From: Lacinutrix sp. 5H-3-7-4
Lineage (GTDB): Bacteria > Bacteroidota > Bacteroidia > Flavobacteriales > Flavobacteriaceae
Reading direction: 5' to 3'
Length of the DNA: 64,000 nucleotides
NCBI RefSeq assembly: GCF_000211855.2
Contig: NC_015638.1
Span: forward strand, 2,763,001 to 2,827,000
Shown here piece by piece: positions 57,233-60,701 of the stretch. The stretch's first letter is position 1. Each line of letters starts with the position of its first letter. A program made the translations under genes and the position numbers. Under the pieces are notes generated by a model, which was given only the letters and a program-made list of their open reading frames with translations, was not told where the DNA came from and searched no databases.

Positions 57233-57949
57233 CTATTCTTTATCTCCTTCTTCAGGTAAATCCTGAGGTAAAAGTACTACTGTAAAAGTACCGCGAACAC
57301 CCGTAAGTAGGTTCCATTTGCTATTTAAAAGCATGTTTCCTGTAGTTTTTTCAAACACTGCAAAAGCTGCTGTATTTGGTCCAGATGTTCCTTGGTTTAA
57401 AGCCTCAAATTCAACAACATTTTCTCCAGGCTCTAATGTAAGTGTAAATTTTTTATTAGCATTTGCTAAAGCTACTCTACTGTTTACAACAGTTCCGTTT
57501 ACCCAAATTCTAACCAAATCTCCATCTTCTGCTCCAAAATCTCTTAATGAAACATCTTGATATTTAGATTTTGTAAGGTATTTACCAAAAAACTGATTTA
57601 CTTTTCGGCCTTCTTCACGATATTCATCTTCTCTTAACTGTAGAGCATTTTTTAATTGCTTACCAAATAATTCAGCAGGATTTCTTAATTTATCGTCATG
57701 AACCATAGAGAATTCCTTCCTTTTTGCAATACTCATTTGTTCTTCTTTAGAAAGCGTTTCTTTTACATCGTCTTCTTTCTCGGTTTTTTCGTCATTCTTC
57801 TTTACAGGTTGAATAATAATTTCGTCATCTTCTAAAGGATCATCCACGTTTTCTGCTGGTATCGCAATAGATCTGTTTTCGCTATCTATTTGGGCATTTA
57901 CACCTATTATAGAGCAAAATAAAAAGAATGTTAGTAAATAGATTTTCAT
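57233..57949 (-). CDS. Secreted hypothetical protein
   Basis: 238 residues from ATG 57949. The signal peptide is IYLLTFFLFCSIIGVNAQ. An acidic/Lys low-complexity linker follows, then a C-terminal beta-rich domain (DLVRIWVNGTVVNSRVAL, FTLTLEPGENVVEFEALNQG) resembling carbohydrate-binding or jelly-roll-like modules, not identified further. Periplasmic or surface. Upstream frame to 57988 lacks a reasonable start. Confidence 0.6.
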   Translation of the reverse strand: MKIYLLTFFLFCSIIGVNAQIDSENRSIAIPAENVDDPLEDDEIIIQPVKKNDEKTEKEDDVKETLSKEEQMSIAKRKEFSMVHDDKLRNPAELFGKQLKNALQLREDEYREEGRKVNQFFGKYLTKSKYQDVSLRDFGAEDGDLVRIWVNGTVVNSRVALANANKKFTLTLEPGENVVEFEALNQGTSGPNTAAFAVFEKTTGNMLLNSKWNLLTGVRGTFTVVLLPQDLPEEGDKE

Positions 57950-58132: not shown

Positions 58133-58158
58133 TGTAACAATTTTGAAATTGCGTCGTC
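58133..58158 (+). promoter_or_regulatory. ECF-sigma-like promoter of the micro-peptide array
   Basis: TGTAAC (58133-58138) and CGTC (58155-58158) are separated by 16 bp, the arrangement typical of ECF sigma factor promoters. It lies about 48 bp before the first micro-ORF. No TAnnTTTG housekeeping box fits better. No ECF sigma gene is in the window. Confidence 0.55.
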
Positions 58159-58205
58159 TTTATAGTATAACAAAACAATTATCAATCAATTTAAAACCAA
58201 TAATT

Positions 58206-58292
58206 ATGAGAACTTTAAACACAAATCAATTATCAGCAACATTAAACGGTACTAAAAGTAACACTTGGAATACTAGAAGACGTTTTAGATAG
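58206..58292 (+). CDS. Micro-peptide 1 (28 residues)
   Basis: 28 codons: N-terminal MRTLNTNQLSATLN, then a basic C-terminal part with TKSNTWNTRRRF. Too short for usual gene finders. Support comes from the tandem copy 118 bp downstream, which encodes the identical peptide although three nucleotides differ (all third-position synonymous). ATCAATCAA occurs 25 bp before the ATG. No signal peptide, GG leader or Cys. Function unknown. Confidence 0.7.
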   Translation: MRTLNTNQLSATLNGTKSNTWNTRRRFR

Positions 58293-58323
58293 AAGAAAAT
58301 CATCAATCAAAAAATTAACCATC

Positions 58324-58410
58324 ATGAGAACTTTAAATACAAATCAATTATCAGCAACATTAAACGGAACTAAAAGTAACACTTGGAATACTAGAAGGCG
58401 TTTTAGATAG
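58324..58410 (+). CDS. Micro-peptide 2 (28 residues, identical to micro-peptide 1)
   Basis: Tandem copy of the ORF at 58206. Differences are AAC/AAT (Asn), GGT/GGA (Gly) and AGA/AGG (Arg), all synonymous. ATCAATCAA lies 22 bp before its ATG. The duplication unit is about 118 bp. Conservation of the protein but not the DNA argues for selection on the peptide. Confidence 0.72.
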   Translation: MRTLNTNQLSATLNGTKSNTWNTRRRFR

Positions 58411-58452
58411 AAAAAATCAACAATCAACCATCAATCAAAAAATCAAACAATT

Positions 58453-58587
58453 ATGAAAGCAATTATTAATACCTTAAGAAAAACCAGCAGTATTACAGAT
58501 GAACGTTTATTTGTTAATAGAGAAGTTTTTAAATTTAGTAATACTAAAGGAACACTATGGAATGGCGTAAAACGCTATGCACATTAA
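58453..58587 (+). CDS. Micro-peptide 3 (44 residues, related C-terminus)
   Basis: 44 codons, MKAIINTLRKTSSITDERL and on to a C-terminus NTKGTLWNGVKRYAH. Aligned with peptides 1 and 2 it keeps N-x-T-K-x3-W-N-x2-(R/K)-R-(F/Y) near the end, while the N-terminal part differs. ATCAATCAA again lies 23 bp upstream. A terminator follows 25 bp after the stop, so the three ORFs form one transcription unit. Function unknown. Confidence 0.68.
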   Translation: MKAIINTLRKTSSITDERLFVNREVFKFSNTKGTLWNGVKRYAH

Positions 58588-58605
58588 AATTGCTCGATTA
58601 ATTAA

Positions 58606-58640
58606 AAAAAGCCAGCGAGTTAGGGTTCGCTGGTTTTTTT
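58606..58640. terminator. Intrinsic terminator of the micro-peptide array
   Basis: A-run, CCAGCGA (58612-58618), loop, TCGCTGG (58627-58633), T-run. Shared with the convergent dehydrogenase gene. Confidence 0.9.
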
Positions 58641-58658: not shown

Positions 58659-60647
58659 TTAATATTCTAATAAGGTTAATAATTCTGCTTCAAACTTATC
58701 ACGAGCTAAATATTGATCTTCTAGCTGGTTTATAAAAGGAATAGGTGTTTCAAGACTTGCAACACGTTTTACTGGTGCATCTAAATGTTCGAAACAATTT
58801 TCCATAATTAGTGCAGAGATATCACTGGCAATACCGCCAAAAAGTGAATCTTCTTGTAGTATAATTACGCGTCCTGTTTTTTTAGCTGAAGCATAAATAG
58901 TTTCTGTATCTAATGGCTGTAAAGATCTTAAATCAATAACATCGGCAGAGATGTCTTGGTGTTTATCTAAAGTATTTAATGCCCAATGTACGGCTTGACC
59001 ATAGGCAATTACAGTAATATCATCGCCTTGTTTTAGTGTTGCTGCTTTACCAAACGGAATTGTAAAATAGTCTGTTGGTACATCTTGACGAATACTTCTA
59101 TATAAAGCTTTGTGCTCAAAAAACAATACTGGATTTGGATCATTAATTGCTGTTGCCAATAAGCCTTTTGCATCTTTTGGAAATGCAGGATATATAACTT
59201 TTAAACCTGGAGTTTTAGTAAACCAAGCTTCGTTTGTTTGACTATGAAAAGGTCCTGCAGCTACGCCTGCACCACAAGGCATTCTTAGTACAACATCTGC
59301 ATTTTGGTTCCAGCGATAATGTGATTTTGCTAAATAATTTACAACAGGATTAAAACCAGATGTTACAAAATCACTAAACTGTAACTCTACAACGCTTTTT
59401 ATTCCTGCTATGCTTAATCCCATTGCAGTTTCAATTATTGCCGATTCGCAAATTGGAGTATTACGTACTCTGTCTTTTCCAAATGCTTCTACAAAGCCAT
59501 CTGTAATTTTAAAAACACCACCATATTCTGCTACATCTTGACCCATAATGACTAAGTCCTTATGCTTTTCCATAGACTGTTTTAAACCTACGTGTATCGC
59601 ATCAATCAAGCGTAACTCTTCGGTGTTTTTGTTTTCTTTAACACCTTGATAATCAAAACTTTTAAAAACATCATTTAATTCGTTACTTTCAGTTGAAACA
59701 ATTGCAGCTTCAGCATTCGTTCTGTCTAAATGTGTATCTATTTCAGCCTTAATTTCAGCTTTAAAAATAGCGTCTTCTTTTTCGGTTAAAATACCTTCTT
59801 CTAAAAGGTGTAACTTATAATTATCTATTGGGTCTTTTTTTGCCCATTGGTCCATTAACTCCTGTGGCACATATTTAGTACCACTAGCCTCTTCATGACC
59901 ACGCATTCTAAAAGTTTTGAATTCTATTAAAACAGGACGTGGTTTTTTTCTTATACTTTCTGTTATTTTAGAAATTTTAGTAAACACTTCTAAAATGTTA
60001 TTACCATCTATAATATGAGATTCCATACCATAACCTAAAGCACGATCTGCTAAATTCTCACAATTATACTGTTCTTTGGTAGGTGTTGACAACCCATATC
60101 CATTATTTTCAATACAAAAAAGCACAGGCAATTGCCAAACAGATGCTACATTTAAAGCTTCGTGTATATCTCCTTCACTTGTTCCGCCTTCACCTGTAAA
60201 TACTGCTGTTACTTGGTTTTTATTTTTTAATTTACTAGCTAATGCAATACCATCTGCAACGCCAAATTGAGGTCCTAAGTGAGAAATCATACCTACAATA
60301 TTAAACTCTTGCGTTCCAAAATGAAATGAGCGATCTCGACCTTTTGTAAATCCGTTTGCTTTTCCTTGCCATTGGCTAAATAAACGGTATAGTGGTATGT
60401 CTCGAGTTGTAAAAACACCCAGATTTCTATGCATTGGTAAAATATATTCTTCTGCATGCATAGCCATTGTTACACCTACAGAAATAGCTTCTTGGCCAAT
60501 ACCAGAAAACCATTTACTAATTTTACCTTGACGAAGTAAAATAAGCATTTTTTCCTCTATTAATCGAGGTTTTAACATGGCTTGATATAATGCTATCTTG
60601 GTTTTGCTAGATAACTTTGTTTTATTATAATTTATGTTAGATTTCAT
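58659..60647 (-). CDS. 2-oxoacid dehydrogenase E1, fused alpha and beta subunits
   Basis: About 662 residues in one chain. The alpha half has GIGQEAISVG and the thiamine-diphosphate motif GEGGTSEGDIHEALNVA near 152. The beta half begins near 342 (LRLIDAIHVGLKQSM, VIMGQDVAEYGGVFKITDGF, ICESAIIETAMGLSIAG, FGGIASDIS). Such fusions are typical of the branched-chain/acetoin-type E1 in Bacteroidota. It decarboxylates 2-oxoacids for the E2 lipoyl subunit, encoded elsewhere. Starts at 60647 or 60662 are both possible. Confidence 0.92.
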   Translation of the reverse strand: MKSNINYNKTKLSSKTKIALYQAMLKPRLIEEKMLILLRQGKISKWFSGIGQEAISVGVTMAMHAEEYILPMHRNLGVFTTRDIPLYRLFSQWQGKANGFTKGRDRSFHFGTQEFNIVGMISHLGPQFGVADGIALASKLKNKNQVTAVFTGEGGTSEGDIHEALNVASVWQLPVLFCIENNGYGLSTPTKEQYNCENLADRALGYGMESHIIDGNNILEVFTKISKITESIRKKPRPVLIEFKTFRMRGHEEASGTKYVPQELMDQWAKKDPIDNYKLHLLEEGILTEKEDAIFKAEIKAEIDTHLDRTNAEAAIVSTESNELNDVFKSFDYQGVKENKNTEELRLIDAIHVGLKQSMEKHKDLVIMGQDVAEYGGVFKITDGFVEAFGKDRVRNTPICESAIIETAMGLSIAGIKSVVELQFSDFVTSGFNPVVNYLAKSHYRWNQNADVVLRMPCGAGVAAGPFHSQTNEAWFTKTPGLKVIYPAFPKDAKGLLATAINDPNPVLFFEHKALYRSIRQDVPTDYFTIPFGKAATLKQGDDITVIAYGQAVHWALNTLDKHQDISADVIDLRSLQPLDTETIYASAKKTGRVIILQEDSLFGGIASDISALIMENCFEHLDAPVKRVASLETPIPFINQLEDQYLARDKFEAELLTLLEY

Positions 60648-60701
60648 AAGTGTGTTTGGCATCCTAAAAAAGTTTATCAAATATAACATTATTGCATAAA
60701 A

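Follow-up and report, generated by a model that had tools for sequence, protein, structure and literature searches.

Introduction

Proteins of the DUF1127 family, among them CcaF1, YjiS and the Agrobacterium SDPs, are short, arginine-rich and positively charged, and some bacteria have several of them per genome (PMC12501420, PMC10253847). In the available parts of these reports, ccaF1 shares its transcript, made from an RpoH-type promoter, with four homologous sRNAs; the partner described for CcaF1 is RNA, and that of the Agrobacterium proteins and of E. coli YjiS is PhoR (PMC12501420, PMC10253847); the targets of the DUF1127 proteins themselves are disputed. The 28-mer described here is likewise short and basic, and it would be induced by stress, judging by the promoters of its family. 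Unlike DUF1127 proteins, however, they have 28 residues rather than 47–71, with an invariant W-N and R-R, and neither the 28-mer nor its 44-residue partner matches any Pfam family at E ≤ 10. The ccaF1 unit, as far as it is described, repeats sRNAs, whereas our array repeats protein genes.

Ribosome-arrest and attenuator leaders such as TnaC and the Erm leaders are encoded by the first ORF of an operon and combine a C-terminal motif with a free N-terminus. Peptides of the present family also occur as the first ORF of operons with a C-terminal motif and a free N-terminus. Unlike in the leaders, no co-directional gene follows the array studied here, the distance from motif to stop is not fixed, and there are several copies together with a separate partner.

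A third relevant system is the P. gingivalis locus PG_0214-0216, where, as in the genome studied here, an ECF sigma factor of the sigma_PG0214 type occurs with a small gene and a DUF4252 protein gene. Under peroxide, PG_0214-0216 was 8- to 11-fold higher in FLL361 than in W83, according to the part of the report available (PMC10101095). In the open-access PMC literature we found no description of peptide targets of a PG0214-type sigma factor, nor any paper on the peptides themselves.

Results

The window is the whole 64 kb stretch of Lacinutrix DNA that was analysed, and the unit of interest lies at 58133-58640. Its parts and neighbours are listed below; here and throughout, gene names come from Pfam or NCBIfam where so stated and otherwise from reading the sequence.

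57233-57949, minus strand: divergent gene for a secreted protein, outside the unit; a neighbour in 75 of 80 loci
58133-58158, plus strand: ECF-type promoter TGTAAC-N16-CGTC, the sole site in the window
58181-58189, plus strand: ATCAATCAA element in the leader of copy 1, 25 bp before the ATG
58206-58292, plus strand: 28-aa WNxKRRY-type peptide, copy 1; an ORF with homologues
58302-58310, plus strand: ATCAATCAA element in the leader of copy 2, 22 bp before the ATG
58324-58410, plus strand: 28-aa WNxKRRY-type peptide, copy 2; the protein of copy 1 with three synonymous changes
58430-58438, plus strand: ATCAATCAA element in the leader of the 44-aa ORF, 23 bp before the ATG
58453-58587, plus strand: 44-aa partner peptide with C-terminus W-N-G-V-K-R-Y-A-H; an ORF, with the partner in 66 of 80 loci
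58612-58640, no strand assigned: hairpin resembling a terminator, read from the sequence, which separates the array from the convergent E1 dehydrogenase gene
58659-60689, minus strand: convergent E1 dehydrogenase gene (Pfam)

The array of three micropeptide ORFs reported in the preliminary description is confirmed. Both 28-codon ORFs encode MRTLNTNQLSATLNGTKSNTWNTRRRFR, and a recount of their DNA differences gave three synonymous and no non-synonymous changes, as had been stated. The third ORF does have 44 codons. The C-terminal pattern assigned to all three ORFs holds in part: N-x-T-K is found in both 28-mers (as NGTK), whereas the 44-mer reads S-N-T-K at this place. The spacing of 22–25 bp given for ATCAATCAA ahead of each ATG agrees with the distances above, and the window has 6 such sites against 1.24 expected from shuffling. 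The TGTAAC-N16-CGTC site is 1 per 64 kb window against 0.05 expected. The unit was also said to have its own promoter and terminator, and it does have both the promoter and a terminator-like hairpin (stem CCAGCGA/TCGCTGG followed by a T-run, read from the sequence), with the next gene convergent. The pattern scan lists this hairpin on the minus strand only, while a separate script applied to L032, a near-identical locus, finds it on the plus strand. The AlphaFold2 model of the 44-aa peptide is a low-confidence single helix (mean pLDDT 69.7, pTM 0.27).

The preliminary description looked to related genomes for homologues with a conserved reading frame, and these were found. A profile of the 28-mer (A3) matches 139 of 397 Flavobacteriaceae genomes at E ≤ 0.01 and 126 at E ≤ 1e-4; 13 of the 139 are thus weaker than 1e-4, and about 4 are expected by chance at E ≤ 0.01. 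The genome G037 is confirmed by this profile. No homologue was found in 39 genomes of other families. A sample of 296 genomes from the phylum gave 8 matches, 6 of them in Flavobacteriaceae; the remaining 2 were partial (E ~0.004) and were taken as chance. In the samples searched, the 28-mer is therefore known only from Flavobacteriaceae. None of the three query peptides matches a family in Pfam, NCBIfam or PHROGs, no relative was confirmed among 96 pattern stretches from viral contigs, and the best match among PDB sequences, weak and partial like the others, had E 0.22. These searches give the impression that an unannotated class of stress micropeptides is widespread in Flavobacteriaceae and has been overlooked.

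For the anatomy of the arrays we used a set of 80 loci, which consists of the window and 79 distinct loci from the best 80 of 290 confirmed contig stretches; Lacinutrix, Algibacter, Flavivirga, Mangrovimonas, Hyunsoonleella, Winogradskyella and Aquimarina are among the genera included. There are 1–5 copies of the 28-mer per locus, and 45 of the 80 loci have two or more. The length is 28 aa in 124 of 136 members, 29 in 9, 31 in 2 and 20 in 1. In 135 copies M1, T3, N7, W21, N22, R25 and R26 are 100% conserved, which bears out the fixed Trp-Asn first noticed in the window, and the N-terminus MRTLN.NQ is strongly conserved. The peptides are cationic, as had been claimed, with mean net charges of +5.9 for the 135 28-mers and +5.6 for 68 partners. 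Cysteine is missing from 133 of the 135 28-mers.

The 43/44-aa partner is encoded in 66 of the 80 loci, downstream of every 28-mer in 65 of them. Eight of the 14 other loci have instead an ORF of 22–25 aa of type MKALSKIIDSTHSREDDLETLK; a side observation is that these replacement ORFs (L046, L048, L077, L090, L099, L100, L109, L110) carry an acidic D-D-L-x-T segment. The partner is seemingly disrupted in L087, the contig stops in L052, and L082, L083, L084 and L104 have neither the 44-aa partner nor the 22–25-aa ORF. In L082, L083, L084 and L109, long (ATCA)n runs occur in a leader, either that of a micro-ORF or that of the following gene; such runs could slip and so vary expression.

In the 45 bp ahead of the gene, the ATCAATCAA element is present for 26 of 80 first copies, for 41 of 56 later copies and for 46 of 68 partner genes; among ORFs with 150 aa or more, 6 of 907 have it there. 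As an exclusive tag for these genes it was rejected, since it precedes an ATG 18 times in the Lacinutrix genome, where the reversed pattern does so 9 times, and several of the 18 sites lie ahead of other genes.

The divergent gene at 57233-57949 in the window has a counterpart in 75 of the 80 loci. Its product is a secreted protein with no Pfam match; the C-terminal half of its AlphaFold2 model is beta-rich (mean pLDDT 74), and a comparison with PDB folds gave no match at E ≤ 0.001. Downstream of the array, at a median distance of 277 bp, 52 of 80 loci have a co-directional gene that is ExbD-like by reading. A leader position relative to a following gene is thus absent in the window and possible in 52 of the 80 primary loci. 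Ahead of the ExbD-like gene there is a conserved TGGTATTGTTTTTGTG (L034, L036, L037 and many others), perhaps a sigma-54-like promoter. A count of terminators over the 80 loci (42/80 against 1/80 shuffled) was left unused because several of the hits lie inside this ExbD-like gene.

The 28-mer genes appear to evolve under coding selection, a conclusion supported by the substitution pattern. Pooled pN/pS over 8972 pairs, the selection check proposed at the outset, is 0.34, a value biased low because a peptide match was the basis for choosing the loci. The partner gene was identified with a profile in the vicinity of the arrays; its corrected ratio is 0.37 in 61 close pairs and its pN/pS 0.59 over all 1481 pairs. 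The mean major-base frequency is 0.88, 0.86 and 0.73 at codon positions 1–3, so that the third position is the most variable. Concerted evolution of the copies was considered and is not established, since just 47 of 99 copies have their best match, ties included, within their own array.

The exact TGTAAC-N16-CGTC motif precedes the first copy in 76 of 80 arrays, which agrees with the assignment of the window site as an ECF-type promoter. L046 and L048 have CGTAAC-N16-CGTC instead, L083 has the motif ahead of a short upstream copy, and L084 has a sigma-54-like TGGCAC-N5-TTGC. The Lacinutrix genome contains 10 sites against 2 for the reversed pattern, and all 10 lie 9–61 bp ahead of an ORF on the same strand. 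The genes concerned include, by Pfam, an ECF sigma factor, a rhodanese, Pmp3, a DUF4870 protein and an ankyrin protein, and, by reading, an ABC ATPase and others. The ECF protein is NF058625 sigma_PG0214 (NCBIfam, 237.2 bits against a cut-off of 130); its gene is followed by a 122-aa ORF and a DUF4252 protein gene. Among 30 loci of the sigma gene that were fetched, 26 have the exact motif ahead of it; of the others, inspected by eye, L140, L146 and L150 are off by one base and L148 is without the motif. The array thus shares its promoter motif with an ECF sigma gene. Because the motif precedes 26 of 30 sigma genes as well as the arrays, the sigma_PG0214-type factor is probably autoregulated and cognate to the arrays. 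The sigma_PG0214 gene is also present in Flavobacteriaceae genomes without the 28-mer.

In F. psychrophilum, the ECF motif SM6 is found ahead of an ECF/anti-sigma pair, a rhodanese and an ABC ATPase, and also ahead of a 'putative regulatory RNA', Rfp11, in the part of the study available (PMC9723704). Rfp11, lying behind an ECF motif, may merit a check for micro-ORFs.

Further copies of the motif were found outside the arrays. These secondary copies come from the listed peptide matches or were picked by eye from a DNA search for the WNxKRRY motif, and they are a non-random sample. The motif search has a high background, with a control pattern also frequent; 10 of 20 regions picked from it by eye have a short ORF that ends in the motif, one of which (L338) is doubtful. 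The secondary copies keep W-N-x-[KR]-R-R-[YF] while their N-termini vary. Members outside the arrays are 18–43 aa long, and the motif W is 7 to 16 residues from the end, depending on the member.

Many secondary copies are the first ORF of an operon, the position of a leader. dnaK follows the peptide in five genomes from three genera (Pfam check in L269), with 36–58 bp between the peptide stop and the dnaK ATG. Genes for HlyD and an ABC ATPase follow in five genomes (HlyD check in L328), with an 801-aa permease in the three that are listed that far. In all five HlyD loci (L259, L263, L264, L328, L334), the WN peptide is separated from HlyD by two more micro-ORFs, one of 38–42 aa and one of exactly 21 aa that is hydrophobic; such trains of micro-ORFs are as expected of small-protein genes. 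An ABC ATPase follows in seven loci of six genomes, and in five of the seven it is followed in turn by an ABC-2/M1 protein of 1153–1185 aa (check in L189); in the other two, L273 and L284, the stretches end early, and L284 has another gene between. A hydrolase, with or without a CMD gene, follows in five cases (check in L261), and a histidine kinase in two (check in L183). Other secondary copies form solitary arrays or lie ahead of convergent genes.

When four dnaK-linked peptides were made into a profile, it had matches at E ≤ 0.001 in 41 of 249 genomes, mostly through array peptides. Since the best of these array matches has E 3.0e-11, the array and dnaK-linked peptides are homologous.

Promoters were classified for 59 groups of secondary copies, obtained by filtering for the motif and counting a single group in each 400 bp. 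The set counts one locus twice (L083 = L191), includes a locus that is also among the 80 (L104 = L193) and contains several arrays of the primary type; L262, L270, L277, L279, L288, L338 and others, the peptides of which depart from the motif, were dropped by the filter. An ECF motif is present in 24 groups, a sigma-54-like promoter in 9 and no more than a weak sigma-A-like match in 13, and none was recognised in 13. In random 130-bp windows from the same loci, these types occur by chance at 0.33%, 0.27% and 8.8%, respectively. The nine sigma-54-like promoters belong to all five dnaK loci, three of the five HlyD loci and the L084 array. In F. psychrophilum, the list of sigma-54 promoters includes those of DnaK, GroES/EL, Lon, GrpE/DnaJ and HtpG (PMC9723704 Table 2A, the part consulted).

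Discussion

The peptide family, its coding selection, promoter and partner, the link to the sigma gene and the operon contexts all come directly from the computation. The best explanation, which we hold tentatively at a little short of even chances, is that the peptides are intracellular, cationic stress micropeptides that act in trans, perhaps in a manner like that of DUF1127. Action in trans as small intracellular proteins is suggested by the self-contained unit, the dosing by copies, the conserved N-terminus of the array peptides, the partner and the trains of micro-ORFs, and a role in stress by stress promoters of more than one kind. On the other side stand the varied N-termini and lengths of members outside the arrays, the secondary groups with no recognised promoter or with just a weak sigma-A-like match (13 of 59 each) and the low confidence of the 44-aa model. 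An anionic target, for instance RNA or the ribosome, would fit the charge of the basic aromatic C-terminus and the analogy to DUF1127.

Flavobacteriaceae are a large group of bacteria without Shine-Dalgarno sequences. In the proposed mechanism, stress would lead the sigma_PG0214-type ECF factor, which controls its own gene through its promoter, to switch on the array, and the A-rich leaders with ATCAATCAA would probably aid translation, as in F. johnsoniae, which also lacks Shine-Dalgarno sequences and in which A-rich leaders promote initiation (PMC6847099). The two gene copies would give a higher dose of one 28-mer, with the 44-mer partner co-produced. The working part would be the conserved C-terminus W-N-x-[KR]-R-R-[YF], which most likely docks on one shared anionic partner inside the cell, with the ribosome or another RNA as the first candidate and a chaperone or the membrane as the second, and the docked peptide would tune the response to stress in trans. 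Other members of the family that carry this motif stand under different stress promoters, ahead of dnaK and efflux operons. The expression, strong translation, target and effect of the peptides are what we infer in this scheme.

Because many copies are the first ORF of an operon, the main rival is that these are leader (upstream ORF) peptides: in the presence of stress or drugs, the ribosome would stall on the nascent W-N-x-K-R-R-Y chain and expression of the next gene would change, the arrays being tandem leaders or ribosome decoys; we consider this unlikely, though by no means negligible. A leader acting in cis would also suit the promoter-proximal ORFs of such unlike operons (dnaK in five genomes of three genera, ABC/M1, HlyD, hydrolase and histidine kinase) and the co-directional ExbD-like gene after 52 of 80 arrays, and the conserved C-terminal motif with a free N-terminus has the form of a leader peptide. 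The basic K-R-R / R-Y-R stretch also resembles drug-dependent arrest motifs. However, the window array ends in a terminator with the next gene convergent, its peptides belong to arrays in which MRTLN.NQ is strongly conserved, the motif W stands at a varying distance from the end, and the folding of the window transcript is no more stable than that of shuffled sequences (z −0.07). A broader scheme would combine action in cis and in trans: a portable stress module of Flavobacteriaceae, in which one motif is wired into ECF envelope stress, sigma-54-like dnaK heat shock and export or efflux as a nascent-chain or ribosome-bound switch, with arrays setting the level of the signal in trans and single copies gating operons in cis. 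We regard this scheme as speculative and rather improbable.

The functions first proposed for the array were secreted or stress-induced signalling, antimicrobial or modified peptides, and this interpretation as a whole is partly supported. The link to stress stands, given the ECF sigma gene with the shared promoter and the homologues before dnaK and efflux genes. By contrast, that the peptides are exported as signals, antimicrobials or modified products, to be sensed or used against rivals, has little support, and we think it improbable. They are cationic with a Trp, and some secondary copies have as neighbour an ABC exporter that contains an M1 peptidase domain, others a histidine kinase, contexts in which signalling is conceivable. 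Against this, reading of the sequences finds no hydrophobic signal or leader segment, Cys is nearly absent from the 28-mers, and no maturation, modifying or immunity gene was recognised among the recurrent neighbours (ORF clusters judged by eye, with Pfam scans of a few proteins); the near-constant 28-mer sequence and a shared chromosomal position with the same divergent neighbour also argue against secretion. It is about equally doubtful that the RNA is the functional product, as a small RNA or as repeated AUCAAUCAA binding sites, with the ORFs secondary. The repetition of ATCAATCAA before the ORFs, far above its frequency before long ORFs, and the occurrence of Rfp11 behind an ECF motif in F. 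psychrophilum (PMC9723704, as far as available), the kinship of which with the peptides is hypothetical, are consistent with an RNA role. However, the third codon positions vary most, the transcript shows the ordinary folding given above, and the window unit has no Rfam match at the gathering score: the four matches are all below it, the lowest E being that of Leu_leader (0.005, 27.9/50 bits). Finally, chance ORFs or annotation noise might be suspected because the ORFs are very short and have no family in three libraries, but this is hardly credible, since length (28 residues), sequence, promoter and partner are all conserved in other genomes across many genera.

Intracellular stress micropeptides of this kind would be of interest because about one third of the sampled Flavobacteriaceae genomes (139/397) carry genes that have no model in three curated libraries. 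These genes are tied by their promoters to stress-type sigma systems and adjoin dnaK and efflux genes, which offers a handle on stress regulation. With their short length, fixed C-terminus and extra gene copies, the target should be easy to seek with a tagged or synthetic peptide.

The two types of peptide in the array may themselves be related. A pair of 43-aa ORFs at L320:1674-1986, preceded by an ECF motif, have a partner-like N-terminus and a 28-mer-like WNx[KR]RRF end, and these hybrid ORFs suggest a common ancestry of the 28-mer and 44-aa types.
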